From positions 124,001-188,000 of the forward strand of contig NZ_RZNB01000001.1 in the NCBI RefSeq assembly GCF_004078635.1: a stretch of 64,000 bases of DNA, written 5' to 3'. This stretch comes from Labedella phragmitis (lineage in GTDB: Bacteria > Actinomycetota > Actinomycetes > Actinomycetales > Microbacteriaceae). The notes below the pieces were generated by a model that was not told the origin of the DNA, did no database searches, and saw only the letters and a program-made list of their open reading frames with translations. This document shows, piece after piece, positions 1,770-43,065 of this stretch. The translations under genes and the position numbers were made by a program. Positions within the stretch are counted from its first letter, which is position 1; every line of letters starts with the position of its first letter.

Positions 1770-2618
1770 ATGAGTGAGTTCGCGACCGTCCTGCGTGCTT
1801 GGCGCGACCGCGTCACGCCCCAGCAGGTGGGCATGCCGGCGGGGGCCGGTCGACGCACGAGCGGACTCCGGCGCGAGGAGCTCGCGGCCCTCGCCGGAGT
1901 GAGCGTCGACTACATCGTGCGGCTCGAGCAGGGTCGCGCGACGAACCCGTCGGCGCAGACCCTCACGGCGCTCGCCCGCGCCCTCCGGCTCGACCGAGAG
2001 GAACGCGACCATCTCTTCCGCGTCGCGGGGGCGCCGATCCCGTCGTCTCGCGTGGCACCGCAGCACATCCCGCCCGGAGTGTTGCGCATCGTCGACCGGA
2101 TGGGAGACTGTCCCGTCGCCGTGATGACGGCGGCCTGGGACATCGTGCACTGGAACCCGCTGTGGGCGGCGCTCTTCGGCGATCCGTCCACGCTCTCGGG
2201 CAACGAGCGCAACGTCGCGTGGCGCTACTTCATGCGGGGTCTCGGCGACATCGAGTTCGCCGAGGGCCACAGCGAGGAGTTCACGTCCGACCTCTCCGCC
2301 GACCTGCGACGCGCGGCGGGCCTCTACCCGGACGACGCGCGGATCGCCGGCCTCGTCGCCGCTCTCCTCCGCGACTCCCCGCTCTTCGCGGCCGCGTGGG
2401 AGACCGCGACGGTCGCCTCGCACACCTCGAGCCGCAAGACCGTGCACTCGGCGACGGTCGGTGCGCTCGAACTCGATTGCGACGTGCTGAACGCGCCGTC
2501 GACCGACATGCGCATCGTCGTCTACACGGCCGACCCGGGCTCCGCCTCGGCGGAGAAACTCGACCTCCTCCGCGTCACGGGAATGCAGGAGCTCGGCCGC
2601 CTCGTCATCGATACGTGA
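1770..2618 (+). CDS. XRE-family regulator with MmyB-like ligand domain
   Basis: A 282-residue transcription regulator. Residues 1-80 are a helix-turn-helix with the hallmark GLRREELAALAGVS and YIVRLEQGR segments of the actinobacterial XRE/MmyB group; residues 100-280 form the MmyB-like, PAS-related ligand domain with DIVHWNPLWAALFGD. It probably controls the divergent SDR gene. The start appears leaderless: CATACT at 1758-1763 is a -10-like hexamer six bases before the ATG, with no Shine-Dalgarno sequence. The 3' end overlaps the convergent ABC exporter gene by 14 bases. A second homologue occurs at 38732-39562 and a C-terminal scrap of a third at 9238-9375. Confidence 0.85.
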   Translation: MSEFATVLRAWRDRVTPQQVGMPAGAGRRTSGLRREELAALAGVSVDYIVRLEQGRATNPSAQTLTALARALRLDREERDHLFRVAGAPIPSSRVAPQHIPPGVLRIVDRMGDCPVAVMTAAWDIVHWNPLWAALFGDPSTLSGNERNVAWRYFMRGLGDIEFAEGHSEEFTSDLSADLRRAAGLYPDDARIAGLVAALLRDSPLFAAAWETATVASHTSSRKTVHSATVGALELDCDVLNAPSTDMRIVVYTADPGSASAEKLDLLRVTGMQELGRLVIDT

Positions 2619-4845
2619 TGGCGTCGGTCTCCTGCCGACCGCGCGCCCGACGCGAGGCACGTGCCTCGTCCACCCGATCGTGCGCCGGCCGCTTGTCGCC
2701 GCGCTGCACCGCCCACATCTCGGCATAGACGCCGCCGAGCTCGACGAGCTCGGAATGCGTGCCCTCCTCGACGATCCGGCCGGCCTCGACCACGAAGATG
2801 CGGTCGCACCGCATCACGCTGGCCAGGCGATGCGCGATCATGATGAGGGTCGCGCCGGGAAGCGATCCCATGAGGTCCTCGATCATGTGCGCCTCGGTCG
2901 ATGCATCGAGATCGCTCGTCACCTCGTCGAGGACGTACAGCGGCGACTCTTTGAGGAGCGCCCGGGCGAGCCCCAGCCGGCGCCGCTCACCTCCCGACAG
3001 CCCGGCCCCGGCTTCATCCAGCACGGTGCTTGCGCCGTGAGGAAGCGCCGCGACGAACTCATCGGCGTGAGCCCGGTGGAGCGCGCGTCGGACCGCGTGC
3101 GGCGAGGCGTCGGGAGACGACAGTCGGACGTTGTCCGCGACGGACCGCGAGTACAGCGAGATCTGCTGCGGCACATAGGCGATGCGGGATCGCACCACCG
3201 CGGGCGAGATCCGTTCGAGCGGCACCCCGGACAGCGAGATACCGCCCTCGTCCGGTTCGACCACCCGGAGGAGCAGCTTCGCGATCGTGGATTTCCCCCC
3301 GCCGCTCGGACCGACGAAGGCGACACGCTCGCCCTCCCGGATGGAGAAGGACATGTCGCGCAGCGCGGTGGCGCGTCCGCGGTAGCCGAACGAGACCGAG
3401 TCGAACCGCACCTCACCGCCGACGTCATCGACCTCATCGGATCCCGACACCTCGTCTCCCTCGGGCTCGTAGTCGAGGATCTCGGCGACGCGCCGGAGCG
3501 CCATGCTGGCCTCCTGCCACTCGAGCTGCAGCCCGATCAGTCGGGAGACGGGATCGATGAAGAAGGCGCTTAGTGCCACGAAGGCCATGAGCGTTCCGAG
3601 TGTGAGGTCGCCGTCGATGATGCGCGTCGTTCCGAAGAGGAGGAGGAGAAGCCCCGCGGCGGCCTGGAAGAGCGACATCAACGTCGATTGCCCGTTCTCC
3701 AGCATCCCTTCCCGGAAGGAGAAGCGGACGCTGCGGATGTATTCGCGCTCGACGCCCTCCATCTCTCGCGGTTCGAAGCCCTCGAGCTTGATGCCCTCCA
3801 CACCGCGGAGGCCCTCGATGATGCGCGAATTGAGGACGGAAGCCTGCTGCATCTGCTCGCCGTTGACCGCGCGGAACGGACGCAGGAACGCGACCACGAG
3901 GACGACCGAGGCGATCACGAAGACGACGATGACGAGGAAGAGGGAGGCGTCGAGCGAGAACAGCACGGCTCCCGTGACGATCGCCATCACGGCATCGAGC
4001 ACCGCCGACAGGGCGGCGCCGGTCAGGACGTTCTTGATTGTCATGGCGTCGCCGAAGCGGGTGAGGATGTCTCCCACGGGGCGGGAGTCGAAGAACCGGA
4101 ACGGCATCCGGTAGACGTGCGCGAAGTAGCCGAGGATCAGCGGGACATCGATGCGTTGCGACAGGTGCAGGACGATCCACTGCCGGACGAACTGCACGGC
4201 GTGCTGCACGACGTACATTCCGACGAAGAGCACGCCGAGCGGGACGATGAGCGACTCGAGGTCGTAGGGGATGACCTCGTCGACGATGATCTTCGTGGCG
4301 AATGACGTGGCGATGCCGAGGATCGTGAGGATGAGAGAGCCGAGGATCGCCCAGAGGAAGAGCGCCCGGTGCGGGCGGAGGAGGCGGAGGAATCGCCCGA
4401 CCGGACGGGACTGTGATCCGCCCGGATCGAACGCGCGCGATGGGGCGAGCAGGACGAGTACTCCGGTGAAGCGTGCGAGGAAGTCGTCGACCGCGACCCA
4501 GCGCCGCCGCTTCTCCGCCGGATCGCCGATGAGGAGGCGCCGGGACGTGGCCAGATGGATGACGACGAAGTGCGGATCGCCGGTTGACGTCGTCACGTGG
4601 GCGATCGCTGGTCGGGTGTAACTCGTCGTGAGGGCGTCCTCACCGACCCTCACGACCTTCGCCTCGAACCCCAACTCGACCGCGCCGTCGACGAGTCCGC
4701 GGACCGACACGCCCCGAGCCGCCGTTCCCAATGCGTCCCGCAATTGTGTGACCGACACGGTCTTCCCATGGGCCGCGCTGACCGCCGCGAGGCACGCGGC
4801 ACCGCAGTCGGAGCTCTCGTTCTGGCGGACGTGCTGGCGGGTCAT
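2605..4845 (-). CDS. Bacteriocin-type ABC exporter with C39 peptidase domain
   Basis: The 746-residue protein has the full architecture of a peptidase-containing ABC transporter. Residues 1-135 are a C39 cysteine peptidase with catalytic C14 in NESSDCGAACLA, H92 in DPHFVV and D108 in IGDP. Residues 150-440 are the transmembrane domain. Residues 475-700 are the ATPase, with Walker A GPSGGGKST (512-520), signature LSGGE (616-620), Walker B ending at E641 and the switch His at 672. Such exporters cut a double-glycine leader from a peptide while pumping it out. The downstream adaptor and the precursor peptide on the same strand (4907-6911) fit that job. The gene ends by overlapping the convergent regulator gene. 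Confidence 0.93.
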   Translation of the reverse strand: MTRQHVRQNESSDCGAACLAAVSAAHGKTVSVTQLRDALGTAARGVSVRGLVDGAVELGFEAKVVRVGEDALTTSYTRPAIAHVTTSTGDPHFVVIHLATSRRLLIGDPAEKRRRWVAVDDFLARFTGVLVLLAPSRAFDPGGSQSRPVGRFLRLLRPHRALFLWAILGSLILTILGIATSFATKIIVDEVIPYDLESLIVPLGVLFVGMYVVQHAVQFVRQWIVLHLSQRIDVPLILGYFAHVYRMPFRFFDSRPVGDILTRFGDAMTIKNVLTGAALSAVLDAVMAIVTGAVLFSLDASLFLVIVVFVIASVVLVVAFLRPFRAVNGEQMQQASVLNSRIIEGLRGVEGIKLEGFEPREMEGVEREYIRSVRFSFREGMLENGQSTLMSLFQAAAGLLLLLFGTTRIIDGDLTLGTLMAFVALSAFFIDPVSRLIGLQLEWQEASMALRRVAEILDYEPEGDEVSGSDEVDDVGGEVRFDSVSFGYRGRATALRDMSFSIREGERVAFVGPSGGGKSTIAKLLLRVVEPDEGGISLSGVPLERISPAVVRSRIAYVPQQISLYSRSVADNVRLSSPDASPHAVRRALHRAHADEFVAALPHGASTVLDEAGAGLSGGERRRLGLARALLKESPLYVLDEVTSDLDASTEAHMIEDLMGSLPGATLIMIAHRLASVMRCDRIFVVEAGRIVEEGTHSELVELGGVYAEMWAVQRGDKRPAHDRVDEARASRRARGRQETDAITYR

Positions 4846-4906
4846 CGGTGGGATCCCTCTCTCGTGGTCGTCATGGTCGTCATGTCGGAGGCGGGCAGGC
4901 GCGACC

Positions 4907-6028
4907 TCAGGGGGAGAACCCGGCGAGCTCCTGGGCGTACTCGAGGTAGGTGACCTCGTCGCGCACGACGTCGACGGTGATGGCCGTCCCGTTGATCAGA
5001 TCGTGCTCGGCACCGTCGCGCGTGCGGACGACGTCGTCGTCGAGCGCCAGGTGCACCACGAAGTAGTTGGCCGTCTCCGTCCCGTCGATCGGCATCGCCG
5101 TCACGTCGGCGTCGATGGAGACGACGCGGCCACTGAGCTTCTCGTACTCGACGGCGGGGAGACCCTCCACCGAGACGGTCGCCCGATCCCCCACCTCGAC
5201 GTGTTGCCGATCCGGCACGGACAGGTAGACGCTCACGTCGAGCCCCTCCTCCGTCGACGCCACGGAGCCGATCCGGTCTCCGGCCGTGACGACGCTGCCC
5301 ACCTGCACGCCCTCGTCGAGGTGGACCGTTCCGGAGACGGGCGCGGTGATCTGGAAGGCGCTCTCCCCGGTGCTCGCCGCGCGGCCACGAATGTCGATCT
5401 CCGCAATCTGCTGACGGATCTGGGTCTCCTTCGCCGACGACTCGCTCAAGGCCGTCGAGTCGAGTTCCTCCGCCTTCAACGCGTTGTCGGCGATGGCGCC
5501 GTCGATCTCCACGGGTGTGTACCCGAGCGCTTCGAGGCTCTCGCGGCTCACGATCAGCTGGTCCTTCTGTTTCTGCAGCGAGTCGAACTGCCAGTAGAAG
5601 GCCGCCTCGTCGACGACGTCCTGCCGGAAGGAGTTCTCGCCGTCGCGCACGGCCTGCGAGAAGCGAGACTGAAGGTCCAGCCCCTTCTCGAGGAGGGCCT
5701 TCTGGGCCGCGACGGTGTCCTTCTCCGCCTGAAGTTCGAGGCTCTCGACCGCGACGACGCGCGCTCCCGCCTCGACCCTCGAACCGTTCGGTGCGTCGAC
5801 CGCGGCGACGCGACCCGAGACGCTCGCCATCACGACCGTGCGGTTGGCTCCTTCGATGACGCCGACCCCCTCGACGAGGCTCGGCCGCATGGTCACCGAC
5901 GACCAGAGGACCACGGCGACGATCGCACCCGCGGTGAGTGCGAGGAGGAAGAGTCCGAAGAGAGGCGGCCGCTTCTCGTAGAGGATCCGACTGTCGGTGA
6001 GGCTGTCGAGGTCGACGATGCGCGTCAT
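4907..6028 (-). CDS. HlyD-family membrane fusion/adaptor protein
   Basis: A 373-residue protein of the HlyD/bacteriocin secretion accessory type. It has a short cytoplasmic N-terminus, one membrane helix at about residues 22-43, a biotinyl-lipoyl-like segment (VVMASVSGRVAAVDAPNGSR), a long helical region at about 95-210 likely to form the hairpin, a second lipoyl-like half (FQITAPVSGTVHLDEG) and a C-terminal beta domain. In this Gram-positive setting it would help the C39 ABC exporter pass peptide across the membrane and wall. The start at 6028 was preferred over a longer open frame because it gives an ATGA overlap with the stop of the preceding gene and puts the membrane helix close to the N-terminus. 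Confidence 0.85.
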   Translation of the reverse strand: MTRIVDLDSLTDSRILYEKRPPLFGLFLLALTAGAIVAVVLWSSVTMRPSLVEGVGVIEGANRTVVMASVSGRVAAVDAPNGSRVEAGARVVAVESLELQAEKDTVAAQKALLEKGLDLQSRFSQAVRDGENSFRQDVVDEAAFYWQFDSLQKQKDQLIVSRESLEALGYTPVEIDGAIADNALKAEELDSTALSESSAKETQIRQQIAEIDIRGRAASTGESAFQITAPVSGTVHLDEGVQVGSVVTAGDRIGSVASTEEGLDVSVYLSVPDRQHVEVGDRATVSVEGLPAVEYEKLSGRVVSIDADVTAMPIDGTETANYFVVHLALDDDVVRTRDGAEHDLINGTAITVDVVRDEVTYLEYAQELAGFSP

Positions 6029-6507
6029 GGCTCGCGCGAGACCGCCGGCGCGAAGGCGTCGACCTCGACGGACGTTCCGTCCTCGCCGGCGAAGACGAGG
6101 TAGACCGTCCCGTCGAGCTCGATCTCGTTCTCGTAGGCGGAGACGTTGATCTTGCTGTACACGACATCGAGGTCGGAGACGTCGCCACGGAACCGGACCA
6201 GGATGCAATCGCTCACCTCGACGCGCGGCTCGACTTCGACGTCCGGAGGAAGATCCGCGGGGGACAGAGGCGTCGCCGACTGACGCATGAGCGCCGTCTC
6301 GTGCGCGACGACGTGGTCCTCGTTCGCTCGCGGCGTGAGTCGCTGGACGAGGGGACCTCTCGGCGTCCCCCCGCTGTCGCGGATATCCCGCACGAGCGCG
6401 ACGGCCGTGTCGCGGACATGGCCCGGATCCAGCGCACGTATCCGTCGCCGCACGACGTTCTCGAGTACGAGTGTGCGCGGGTACTCGGTGCCGATCGTTC
6501 TTCTCAT
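6025..6507 (-). CDS. Unknown accessory protein of the peptide export operon
   Basis: A 160-residue soluble-looking protein that I do not recognise. It has an Arg-rich N-terminal helical region (RTLVLENVVRRRIRALDPG) and an acidic C-terminal half with alternating strands (VEVSDCILVRFRGDVSDLDV, IELDGTVYLVFAGEDG). No signal peptide or membrane helix is visible. It lies between the precursor peptide and the adaptor, and its stop overlaps the adaptor start as ATGA, so the two are translationally coupled. Position suggests a role in recognition, maturation or regulated export of the peptide, but nothing in the sequence proves it. A 7-bp hairpin sits just upstream of its start. Confidence 0.65.
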   Translation of the reverse strand: MRRTIGTEYPRTLVLENVVRRRIRALDPGHVRDTAVALVRDIRDSGGTPRGPLVQRLTPRANEDHVVAHETALMRQSATPLSPADLPPDVEVEPRVEVSDCILVRFRGDVSDLDVVYSKINVSAYENEIELDGTVYLVFAGEDGTSVEVDAFAPAVSREP

Positions 6508-6516
6508 CTCGTGTCG

Positions 6517-6534
6517 GTGTCGCTTCCGCGACAC
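6517..6534 (-). other. Hairpin upstream of the accessory gene
   Basis: Perfect 7-bp stem GTGTCGC/GCGACAC around a four-base loop (GGAA on the minus strand), ten bases before the start codon at 6507. A second stem, CGGGCG-N3-CGCCCG at 6584-6598, lies about ten bases after the precursor stop. Together they could trim or partly terminate the message so that much more precursor than export machinery is made, as in many bacteriocin operons. This is an inference from position. Confidence 0.4.
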
Positions 6535-6608
6535 TCGTCCTCTCGTCGCAGCGGTAGGGGGAACGGGGGACGGGCAACGCGTTCGGGCGCGCCGCCCGCC
6601 CGGAGGCG

Positions 6609-6911
6609 CTAGATCATCGAGTAGAACTTGTTCTCGAACCCGGCCATGATGAACGGGCTGCCGGCGGGGGACATGCCGGCGACCGCCCCGCGGACCTGCC
6701 ACTTGATCTTCTGGTAGGTCTTGTTGCGCAGGCCGGCGTGGTAGGCGCGCTCGCCGGCGGCCATGCCTCCGGCGTACAGGCTTCCTCCGATTCCGAGAGC
6801 GCCGCCGATGATGCCGATGACCGCGATGGCGCCGATGCCGCCGTCGATGCCGTCCAGTTCGTCGTTCGGGACGTCTCGATACGTGGTGGGCATCTCCAGA
6901 ACCATGGACAT
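6609..6911 (-). CDS. Double-glycine leader peptide precursor (class II bacteriocin-like)
   Basis: A 100-residue peptide with a leader of the double-glycine type: residues 14-25 read VPNDELDGIDGG, matching the ELxxIxGG pattern recognised by C39 peptidases, so cleavage is expected after G25. The 75-residue remainder starts with a Gly/Ala/Ile-rich hydrophobic stretch (about 26-53) with several Gly-x3-Gly spacings, followed by a basic, aromatic region (KTYQKIKWQVR) and the C-terminal FENKFYSMI. By my count the mature part is about +5 in charge and has no Cys. The ribosome binding site AAGGAGGT lies six bases before the ATG, the strongest in the window. It is followed by the accessory, adaptor and C39 exporter genes. 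Sequence and context agree on a secreted antimicrobial or signalling peptide; activity is inferred. Confidence 0.8.
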   Translation of the reverse strand: MSMVLEMPTTYRDVPNDELDGIDGGIGAIAVIGIIGGALGIGGSLYAGGMAAGERAYHAGLRNKTYQKIKWQVRGAVAGMSPAGSPFIMAGFENKFYSMI

Positions 6912-6979
6912 GTGAGTACCTCCTTGTTCGGATGCGGGCACCGGGCGGCGCCTGCGTGACCCGACGGTAGTTGCTCTTC

Positions 6980-7023
6980 TCCACACCCGCTCGGAGTTTC
7001 CACATAGATACGTCTTCTGTGGA
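6980..7023. promoter_or_regulatory. TCCACA repeats in the divergent bacteriocin promoter region
   Basis: The 144-base gap between the precursor and the divergent membrane gene holds TCCACA at 6980-6985 and 6999-7004 (19 bases apart, direct) and the inverted copy TGTGGA at 7018-7023. The second and third copies form an inverted repeat with a 13-base spacer. The third overlaps the -35 box of the rightward promoter. This layout looks like a binding site for a regulator of both directions. No dedicated regulator gene is next to it. Confidence 0.4.
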
Positions 7024-7048
7024 CAGGTTCTTCCGGGCGAGCGATACT
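7020..7048 (+). promoter_or_regulatory. Promoter of the candidate immunity gene, leaderless
   Basis: TGGACA at 7020-7025 (five of six matches to TTGACA), a 17-base spacer, then GATACT at 7043-7048. The ATG at 7056 is seven bases after the -10 box, so the transcript should begin at or next to the start codon. There is no Shine-Dalgarno sequence. Confidence 0.6.
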
Positions 7049-7055
7049 GGCGTGC

Positions 7056-7493
7056 ATGAATAGATACTCGTCCGCATCCCGCGATTCGGGCTCCGGCACC
7101 CTCGAGCCCCCACCGCATGACGCGCGTCCCGCTGTCGCGCGAGGCGACGTGTCGCCACTCGGACGCGCGTCGCTCGGAGCGCTCTTCGCCGCGGTGATCG
7201 TCAGCGCACCCGGGCTCACCGAGGCGTACGCCAGCGCCATCGCGATCGGCTTCTCCAGCCTGGCACTCGCGCTCGTCGAGTCCACCCGGCCCACCGCGAC
7301 CCGTCCACCCGGCCTTCCACGACGGCGGCGCGTGGCTCCGGCGCTCGTCGCGAGCGCGGCCGTCTTCATCGCGGCTTTCGCCGCATCCTTCGCGGCCGCT
7401 GCGGCAGGGAGTCGCGATCTGAGCACCGCCATCGCCGGAGCGGCGTTCATCCTGCTGTTGCCGCTGATCTGGCTCGACGAGCGGTCCCGCTGA
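7056..7493 (+). CDS. Small membrane protein, candidate bacteriocin immunity factor
   Basis: A 145-residue protein with about four hydrophobic segments: two in residues 38-75 (LGALFAAVIVSAPG and AIAIGFSSLALALV), then two in residues 92-140 (PALVASAAVFIAAFAASFAA and TAIAGAAFILLLPLIW), separated by an Arg-rich cytoplasmic loop (RPPGLPRRRRV). I recognise no family. It is transcribed away from the peptide precursor from a shared 144-base region. Small multi-pass membrane proteins next to the precursor are the usual form of immunity for class II bacteriocins, and no other candidate lies in this locus. The function is inferred from position and topology only. Confidence 0.6.
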   Translation: MNRYSSASRDSGSGTLEPPPHDARPAVARGDVSPLGRASLGALFAAVIVSAPGLTEAYASAIAIGFSSLALALVESTRPTATRPPGLPRRRRVAPALVASAAVFIAAFAASFAAAAAGSRDLSTAIAGAAFILLLPLIWLDERSR

Positions 7494-7540
7494 TCCGGCG
7501 ATGGCGTGAGGTGGGCGCACCGACTCCCTAGGCTGATCTC

Positions 7541-8497
7541 ATGCGCGGCTTCTACCCCGAGATCGAACCGTACGTCTCCGGCATGCTCGACGTCGGCGAC
7601 GGCCAACAGCTCTACTGGGAGGAGTCGGGCAACCCGGACGGCAAGCCCGTCGTCTTCCTCCATGGCGGACCCGGTGGCGGCACGAACGCCAACCAGCGGC
7701 GCGTCTTCGACCCCGCGAAGTACCGCATCGTGCTCTTCGACCAGCGCGGCTGCGGCCGCAGCACGCCGCACGCGAGCGAGAACCCCGATCTCTCCGCGAA
7801 CACCACGTGGCACTCGGTCGTCGACATCGAGCGACTGCGCGAGGCGCGCGGCATCGACAGGTGGCAGGTGTTCGGCGGGTCGTGGGGCAGCGCCCTCGCC
7901 CTCGCGTACGCCGAGACGCACCCCGAGCGCGTGACCGAGATCGTCCTGCGCGGCATCTTCACGCTCCGTCAGAGTGAGATCGACTGGTTCTACGAGGGCG
8001 GTGCGGGAGCGATCCTCCCCGAGCGGTGGGAGGGCTTCCTCGCGCCCGTCCCGGAGAACGAGCGACGCTCCCTCATCTCCGCCTACCACCGGCTGCTCAA
8101 CCACCCGGATCCCGCGATCCACGGGCCGGCCGCCGTGGCCTGGTCGGGCTGGGAGGCCGCGGCCATCACGCTCATCCCGCGCGACGACCTCATCGACACG
8201 TTCACCGAGCCCGCCTACGCGCTCGCGTTCGCACGCATCGAGAACCACTACTTCGTGAACAAGGGCTGGTTCGAACCGGAACAGCTGATCCGCGATGCGC
8301 CGAAGCTCCGCGACATCCCGGGCGTCATCATCCAGGGCCGCTACGACCTCTGCACCCCGGCATTCACCGCGTGGGACCTGCACCGCGCGTGGCCCGAGGC
8401 CGAGCTGCACATGATTCCGGATGCCGGTCACGCCTTCGACGAGCCGGGCATCCTCGACGCCCTCGTCACCGCGACGGACGGCTTCGCCGACCGCTAG
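7541..8497 (+). CDS. pip: Proline iminopeptidase (prolyl aminopeptidase)
   Basis: This 318-residue alpha/beta hydrolase carries all signatures of prolyl aminopeptidase, which releases N-terminal proline from peptides in the cytosol. The oxyanion segment HGGPGGG is at residues 41-47, FDQRGCGRS at 66-74, and the nucleophile S114 lies in GGSWGS. The acid D is in the GRYDLCTP segment and the His in DAGHAFDEPG near the C-terminus. Length is standard for the family. The start is leaderless: TAGGCT at 7529-7534 is six bases before the ATG. It stands alone between the bacteriocin locus and a repeat element. Confidence 0.93.
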   Translation: MRGFYPEIEPYVSGMLDVGDGQQLYWEESGNPDGKPVVFLHGGPGGGTNANQRRVFDPAKYRIVLFDQRGCGRSTPHASENPDLSANTTWHSVVDIERLREARGIDRWQVFGGSWGSALALAYAETHPERVTEIVLRGIFTLRQSEIDWFYEGGAGAILPERWEGFLAPVPENERRSLISAYHRLLNHPDPAIHGPAAVAWSGWEAAAITLIPRDDLIDTFTEPAYALAFARIENHYFVNKGWFEPEQLIRDAPKLRDIPGVIIQGRYDLCTPAFTAWDLHRAWPEAELHMIPDAGHAFDEPGILDALVTATDGFADR

Positions 8498-8524
8498 TCG
8501 CGACCGGAGTCGTCCGCGAGGCGC

Positions 8525-42434: not shown

Positions 42435-42477
42435 AACCTCGAGGCCACCCTGACCACCACCGATTGACGGAGTAATG

Positions 42478-43065
42478 ATGACCACCACCACGCTCACCGA
42501 GCACCTCCACGCATCCGACGAGCCCGAATACGTGCACACACCCTCCGTGGATTACGTCGCCGTCCTCGGTGACGGCGCCCCGGGAAGCGATGAGTTCTAC
42601 CGCAAGAAGATCCTCGTCTCCGACATCGCGCGCATTCTCAACAAGAGCGACGAGACACCGGTTGTAGAGATCCAGTTCTGGTATCCGGAGAACTCCGCAC
42701 GAGTGGAGATCGCCGACTTCTACAGCGTGAACCCGATCCCATCGCTGCTCTACCGGGTGCTCGCCCAGATCCCGAACGGAACCACCGATGCGGAGATCAC
42801 CGACGCGCGGACCCGAGCCGAGAGTGTCGCGGACACCGCCTCGGACGAGGTGACGTCATTCACGATCCCCGGACAGGATGTGGTCCAGGTCATGCATCAC
42901 GGACCGTTCTCGGAGGAGTTCGCAACCCTGGCACGCCTCGGCGATTATGCACAGGGTCGGAGCCTGCACAGGGCCGGCCCGCATCACGAGATCCACCTCG
43001 ACGCCTTCACGCGCACGACCCCGCAGGACACCCTCCGGACGATCCTTCGCGATCCCGTCGACTGA
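42478..43065 (+). CDS. GyrI-like small-molecule binding protein
   Basis: A 195-residue protein resembling the GyrI-like domain family: VDYVAVLGDGAPGSDEFYRK, a middle part with PVVEIQFWYPENS, and VVQVMHHGPFSEEFATLARL, which matches the family's hallmark HxGPY-like segment (here HHGPF). The second of two tandem ATGs (42478) is chosen because GGAG lies five bases before it. Probably a ligand-binding protein without a DNA-binding part, like the gene at 197-616 but longer. Forty-three bases after the MazG-like gene, likely the same transcript. Confidence 0.7.
   Translation: MTTTTLTEHLHASDEPEYVHTPSVDYVAVLGDGAPGSDEFYRKKILVSDIARILNKSDETPVVEIQFWYPENSARVEIADFYSVNPIPSLLYRVLAQIPNGTTDAEITDARTRAESVADTASDEVTSFTIPGQDVVQVMHHGPFSEEFATLARLGDYAQGRSLHRAGPHHEIHLDAFTRTTPQDTLRTILRDPVD

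Follow-up and report, generated by a model that had tools for sequence, protein, structure and literature searches.

What does the five-gene locus at 2605–7493 of a Labedella phragmitis sequence produce, and what would protect the cell from its product? The sequence is a stretch of 64,000 nucleotides (contig NZ_RZNB01000001.1, positions 124,001 to 188,000 of the forward strand), the whole of which is referred to here as the window. A first-pass annotation, made from the letters alone, had described the locus as a complete class II bacteriocin-like one, and all of its open reading frames (ORFs) were confirmed at the coordinates claimed. Four of them lie on the minus strand and are transcribed in the order precursor peptide (6609–6911; 100 amino acids, aa), accessory protein (6025–6507; 160 aa), HlyD-type adaptor (4907–6028; 373 aa) and C39-peptidase ATP-binding cassette (ABC) exporter (2605–4845; 746 aa), with the adaptor and accessory genes overlapping by 4 bases. 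The fifth, on the plus strand, encodes a divergent membrane protein (7056–7493; 145 aa). Judging from the sequence, the locus is probably (at roughly 0.72) a single-peptide, unmodified double-glycine (class II, IId-like) bacteriocin cassette. It is an uncatalogued peptide in a familiar gene layout, and the cassette is complete and rare.

The precursor consists of a leader (residues 1–25), which ends in GG, and a mature part (residues 26–100). In the leader MSMVLEMPTTYRDVPNDELDGIDGG, the GG is preceded by hydrophobic residues, I at -4, L at -7, V at -12 and Y at -15, and these are the positions through which C39 domains bind leaders (PMC7018657). We searched the 64 kb window for ORFs of 40–170 aa with a Shine-Dalgarno match of at least 4 bases and hydrophobic residues at these four positions before GG or GA; the precursor was the sole ORF to be retained with GG, and two others were retained with GA only. 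Its Shine-Dalgarno sequence AAGGAGGT is an 8-base match located 6 nt upstream of the ATG, which is the longest class in the window. Two further ORF starts also reach 8 bases, so the earlier description of it as the strongest in the window has to be reduced to joint strongest. The mature peptide has 75 residues and no Cys, as had been described, with a computed mean mass of 7,692 Da and an isoelectric point of 9.99. It begins with IGAIAVIG; its first half is hydrophobic and rich in Gly, Ala and Ile, with GxxxG motifs, and its second half is basic and ends in GFENKFYSMI. Only one copy of the precursor was found in the genome.

The exporter matched Peptidase_C39 of Pfam with 99.4 bits (cut-off 22), in addition to ABC_membrane and ABC_tran, and the solved transporter PCAT1 (PDB 4ry2) aligned with its residues 5–711 (E 3.6e-146). 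The Cys-His-Asp triad which had been read in it is intact, with Cys14, His92 and Asp108 in the columns matching those of PCAT1, and the ATPase motifs are present. Thus, it has both the N-terminal C39 domain with the catalytic triad and the ABC exporter core by which peptidase-containing ABC transporters (PCATs) are defined, although it differs from PCAT1 in its cargo and in standing beside an HlyD-type adaptor. The naming of the adaptor as HlyD-like also agreed with Pfam (HlyD_3, 55.6 bits); the protein has a hydrophobic N-terminal segment. The C39 domain of the cassette exporter is the only one found in the genome, and it is very likely that this exporter is the one to export the peptide. No modification-enzyme family was matched by any of the five cassette proteins in Pfam or NCBIfam, as expected for an unmodified class II peptide.

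Homologous loci were identified in two other genomes. In Labedella populi (locus L025) all five genes are present and the precursor is 100% identical, and all five frames are open in both species. The second, in the metagenome-assembled genome RYN_70 of a Rhodoglobus sp. (locus L043), was reached via the exporter search and has the same four-gene order, with identities of 51% for the precursor, 43–44% for the accessory protein, 46% for the adaptor and 62% for the exporter. Its context differs, as it lies between a mutarotase-like and an AraC-like gene (ORFs assigned by reading). Since the same four-gene order recurs elsewhere, in another genus, we regard the operon as real and its leader as conserved. 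In the comparison of the window precursor with that of Rhodoglobus, 12 of the 25 leader residues and 38 of the 75 mature residues are invariant; the GG is kept, and the hydrophobic positions are occupied by V, F, I and Y in Rhodoglobus. Hence the leader rule and the cleavage site are conserved across the two genera, with varying residues between them. The conserved blocks of the precursor are AGERAY-AGLRN--YQ--KW--RG and the C-terminal decapeptide GFENKFYSMI, which is unchanged in both genera. The DNA of the last ten codons (6611–6641 in the window and L043:7095–7125) is 97% identical over 31 bases, the only part of the gene aligned by blastn between Labedella and Rhodoglobus. In the window as in both homologous loci the precursor adjoins a C39 ABC exporter and an adaptor; homologues lacking the GG, or standing away from such exporters, were thus not encountered, a check made on the two homologues only.

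The cassette was found in two of the four Labedella genomes, that of the window and L. populi, and the other two (G001 and G002) are without it. Whole-genome searches of G001 and G002 detected no C39 domain, adaptor, accessory or divergent protein, and no precursor except for a weak match in G002 (39% over 41 residues, E 0.009). Collinearity with the cassette-free loci L040 and L041 is interrupted: with L040 it ends at 2589 and restarts at 7514, and with L041 it ends at 2594 and restarts at 7524, which delimits an inserted segment of approximately 2595–7513. The left break falls just before the stop of the helix-turn-helix (HTH) gene (1770–2618) and the right break directly follows the stop codon of the 145-aa gene. 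In G001 the matching pieces are 72 bases apart; in G002 they are 731 bases apart, and the intervening sequence is a different one with small ORFs of its own. The five genes therefore appear as one inserted unit relative to the cassette-free Labedella, and the divergent gene belongs to the cassette because it lies inside the segment bounded by the resumed collinearity. At 68.0%, the G+C content of the cassette is like that of the remaining window sequence (67.3%). Compared with L. populi, nucleotide identity is 96–99.6% over about 3500–7500, 85–89% over the 3' portion of the exporter gene (2750–3500), 89–97% over 7500–8500 (mostly the hydrolase gene) and 79–89% upstream (500–2750). We read the high identity of the cassette as recent exchange between the two species.

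That the mature peptide matches no known bacteriocin family, as had been suggested, was supported: no Pfam or NCBIfam model exceeded its cut-off on the precursor, and there was no convincing PHROG match. The nearest NCBIfam model was TIGR03949 (class IIb, lactobin A/cerein 7B), which covered residues 16–53. Other sub-cut-off matches were to DUF6229 (10.8 of 25 bits in Pfam) and to a PHROG holin family (E 0.27). When the Rhodoglobus homologue was added, two further models each matched one member only (E 0.047 and 0.15). An AlphaFold model of the precursor was too poor for use (pLDDT 45.6).

In its layout the cassette resembles the pediocin PA-1 (ped) and bactofencin A (bfn) operons, which, according to PMC5465099, consist of a structural gene, an immunity gene (second, by the construct names) and two transport genes, for an accessory protein and an ABC transporter. 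The 160-aa protein of the cassette sits at the pedB position. In contrast to ped and bfn, the cassette peptide shares no family over cut-off and has no Cys, the adaptor is of the HlyD type, the second gene encodes a 160-aa, possibly GyrI-like protein, there is an extra divergent membrane gene, and the host is an actinobacterium. The cassette also resembles the pneumococcal rtg locus (RtgAB) in combining a PCAT, an accessory transport protein and GG peptides (PMC7018657), although rtg has multiple GG peptides and Rgg-type regulation.

From this arrangement the following course may be proposed. The precursor, with its own strong ribosome-binding site, would probably be made in excess, and the hairpin that follows it (described below) may lower the expression of the genes behind. 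By analogy with its family, the C39 domain would bind the leader via positions -4, -7, -12 and -15 and cut after the GG, and the mature peptide of 75 residues would be exported by the ABC part, for which the HlyD-type protein would be the adaptor. The hydrophobic first half could insert in membranes, and most likely the peptide would permeabilise or inhibit close relatives. Killing of related bacteria is what we infer from the cassette, and protection of the producer would fall either to the divergent membrane protein or to the conserved 160-residue protein, which stands where pedB does. If so, the cassette would define a so far uncatalogued family of peptides whose mature end and mass are predicted, the cassette-free sister Labedella species could serve as natural indicator strains, and the two immunity candidates would be separable.

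Immunity had been assigned to the divergent membrane protein, and this assignment is less secure than first proposed. On the one hand, the 145-aa protein travels with the cassette in Labedella: of 374 family genomes sampled, it was found in 2, the cassette carriers, and its gene lies inside the insertion. On the other hand, it had no match in the Rhodoglobus locus, the copy of L. populi was its only homologue among the 374 genomes, and it is transcribed divergently. Its divergence from the precursor stood as described; its four helices are only compatible with the hydropathy scan, which marked residues 32–77 and 91–143 and is no proof of them. A weak similarity to DUF2530 (15.7 bits, cut-off 25.5) was traced to 12 relatives and gave nothing usable. 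The conserved small protein across the genera is instead the 160-aa accessory protein, which has no predicted membrane segment, is probably cytosolic and is an immunity candidate by operon position. In the Rhodoglobus locus, an ORF for a 69-aa, probably two-helix membrane protein (L043:7130–7339) with a GTG start begins 2 nt after the precursor stop, with no Pfam match, as if membrane immunity proteins had been swapped and the 160-residue protein had stayed. A refinement which leaves the bacteriocin reading intact, and to which we give a serious chance though one short of even, is that the 145-residue membrane protein alone gives immunity, the 160-residue protein serving as a chaperone of the precursor or as a helper in its export.

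What kind of protein the accessory gene encodes has a tentative answer. It had been left unrecognised, and indeed no family exceeded the cut-off in Pfam, NCBIfam or PHROG searches. The GyrI-like family was chosen by eye, on account of the two halves of the protein, and is the only family that was tried by profile comparison. The accessory alignment aligned with a GyrI-like set in hhalign with a probability of 64% (P 6.4e-5) over 118 columns, and the controls gave at most 0.6% (60 column shuffles) and 0.1% (reversed alignment). Despite this remote profile similarity, PF06445 was not listed by Pfam for any of the three accessory members. Taken singly, the members scored 26.5 (window), 30.7 (L. 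populi) and 26.2 (Rhodoglobus) against the GyrI-like profile, with probabilities of 20–47%; of three subsets of the reference set, two gave 0.3 and 0.2% and the third 22.5%. A control set of 156 ORFs was picked by codon-position G+C, with the window accessory gene not among them and scored alone. The top rank was taken by a GyrI-like gene of the reference set, followed by the Rhodoglobus accessory gene (26.2) and a third gene (24.6), which itself has a weak Pfam GyrI-like match; the rest scored 21.2 or less. For single sequences, the margin of the accessory protein over an ordinary low-scoring gene is small. An earlier control of 155 ORFs, none of which had reached the alignment score, was dropped, as the ORFs had been chosen by length only and a GyrI-like gene known to lie in the window did not appear among the best-scoring ones. 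The AlphaFold model of the accessory protein was too poor for use (pLDDT 37.0), and when the accessory alignment was compared with solved structures, only one chance-like row (E 1.2) was returned. We tentatively regard the accessory protein as remotely GyrI-like.

Perhaps the 160-residue protein is a stand-alone GyrI-like protein (effector-binding fold) which binds the basic hydrophobic peptide in the cytosol, either as an immunity factor or as a holding chaperone, a proposal that we hold as doubtful but worth stating. Were it true, cytosolic peptide binding by a GyrI-like protein would be a novel way for a bacteriocin producer to protect itself, and pneumococcal rtgX might be a distant parallel to it. 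The pairing of a GyrI-like protein with a GG exporter is made less odd by the rtg exporter locus, which in 21.1% of 318 genomes holds rtgX, described as a GyrI-like hypothetical protein (PMC7018657); rtgX is likened to the accessory protein by this description only. A GyrI-like domain is also named beside SunT and LanM in a figure legend of PMC10301443, which was not used as evidence here. Elsewhere in the window, two further GyrI-like proteins are encoded at 197–616 (18.6 of 26 bits, below the cut-off) and at 42475–43065 (28.6 bits, above it).

Several observations weigh against the bacteriocin reading. The helical amphipathicity of the window mature peptide is not strong (moments of 0.07–0.25; the N-terminal segment of the Rhodoglobus peptide reaches 0.44), and the class IIb model TIGR03949 stays under its NCBIfam cut-off on the precursor. 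No membrane immunity candidate common to both genera was found at the compared loci. Only three loci are known, two of them nearly identical, which is a thin base for testing selection on the peptide. Finally, double-glycine peptides of such exporters can also be pheromones or of unknown role (PMC7018657). The peptide might accordingly be a signal or some other secreted GG peptide, with the GyrI-like protein sensing its imported or unprocessed form, and it is true that GyrI-like domains are usually ligand sensors. This seems unlikely to us, as pheromones are normally smaller than this mature peptide, with its 75 residues and its membrane-type hydrophobic half, there is no recognised regulator among the five cassette genes, the neighbouring HTH gene is collinear in the cassette-free genomes, and a separate membrane protein is linked to the cassette.

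More improbable still is a class IIb bacteriocin, made up of two peptides as in the lactobin A/cerein 7B family. The likeness lies in the leader and the following Gly-rich hydrophobic segment; with the Rhodoglobus homologue added, TIGR03949 weakly matched both members (best E 0.014), and the hydrophobic half carries the GxxxG motifs. However, the precursor reaches 15.1 bits against a cut-off of 21.5, its conserved C-terminal half is outside the match, and the leader filter with GG retained one precursor only in the window, in a 19 kb stretch of L. populi and in the 20 kb Rhodoglobus locus, a result for linked peptides, with no genome-wide search for an unlinked second one. We give hardly any weight to the idea that the transport locus has decayed or is unused and yields nothing functional: rarity speaks for it, but the five frames are open in two species, the motifs are intact, and the nonsynonymous divergence from L. 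populi (dN) is well under the synonymous one (dS) for the accessory (0.009 and 0.049), adaptor (0.010 and 0.037) and divergent (0.010 and 0.049) genes.

The rarity which the first-pass annotation had expected of such loci in Microbacteriaceae was also found, C39 domains being present in 8 of the 398 sampled genomes of the family. Among the six C39 loci outside Labedella, five have exporters that are only 25–32% identical along the main part of the alignment, and at the sixth the match is limited to 61 residues. Short GG-type ORFs lie near the exporters at three Microbacteriaceae C39 loci (L026:4161–4295, L029:7384–7521 and L030:8221–8466; 44, 45 and 81 aa); they look unlike the precursor, and the 81-aa one has Cys. 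Searching 396 genomes of the order with the precursor alignment returned the own genome and four weak partial matches (best E 5e-4), and searching 394 genomes of the class with the accessory alignment returned the own genome and one weak match (E 0.002). The single accessory protein gave 2 strong and 11 weak partial matches (E 0.001–0.009) in the 398 family genomes. Homologues elsewhere would thus be either absent or too diverged to detect within the sampled genomes. On plasmids, neither the precursor nor the accessory protein had a match, and the adaptor matched 14 records with 24–28% identity over 50–62% of the query. The precursor alignment gave 98 pattern matches in viral contigs, of which none was confirmed. 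In the open-access papers searched, which leave out most subscription journals, Microbacteriaceae were never paired with bacteriocin plus double-glycine or with class II bacteriocin, and Labedella with bacteriocin appeared only in broad works on actinobacteria.

Putative expression signals were also identified. A 14-pair RNA hairpin (6568–6601, minus strand) lies in the gap between the precursor and accessory genes, where it might act as an attenuator or processing site; the fold of the whole gap had a z of -2.05, with 7 of 200 shuffles as good. In Rhodoglobus L043 a perfect 14-bp hairpin precedes the accessory gene (z -4.41, 0 of 200 shuffles). The like placement in both loci suggests attenuation or RNA processing, though it is no proof of either. 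The shared divergent promoter region (6912–7055) contains the inverted repeat TCCACA-N13-TGTGGA at 6999–7023, which is short and may be due to chance, and one promoter-like match on the plus strand (9 of 12 bases). Its fold was no better than that of shuffles (z -1.09, 25 of 200).

The cassette is flanked by SDR (short-chain dehydrogenase/reductase), HTH and hydrolase genes, which are collinear in the cassette-free genomes. What lies between the MLTR/HTH and alpha/beta-hydrolase genes varies among the four Labedella genomes: two carry the cassette there, one has about 730 bp in which different small ORFs lie, and one has almost nothing. L. populi has, next to the cassette, an additional segment of about 674 bp that contains an open frame of 175 residues. 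The jump in identity to L. populi near 3500 (from 85–89% to 96–99.6%), inside the exporter gene, is a likely recombination edge.

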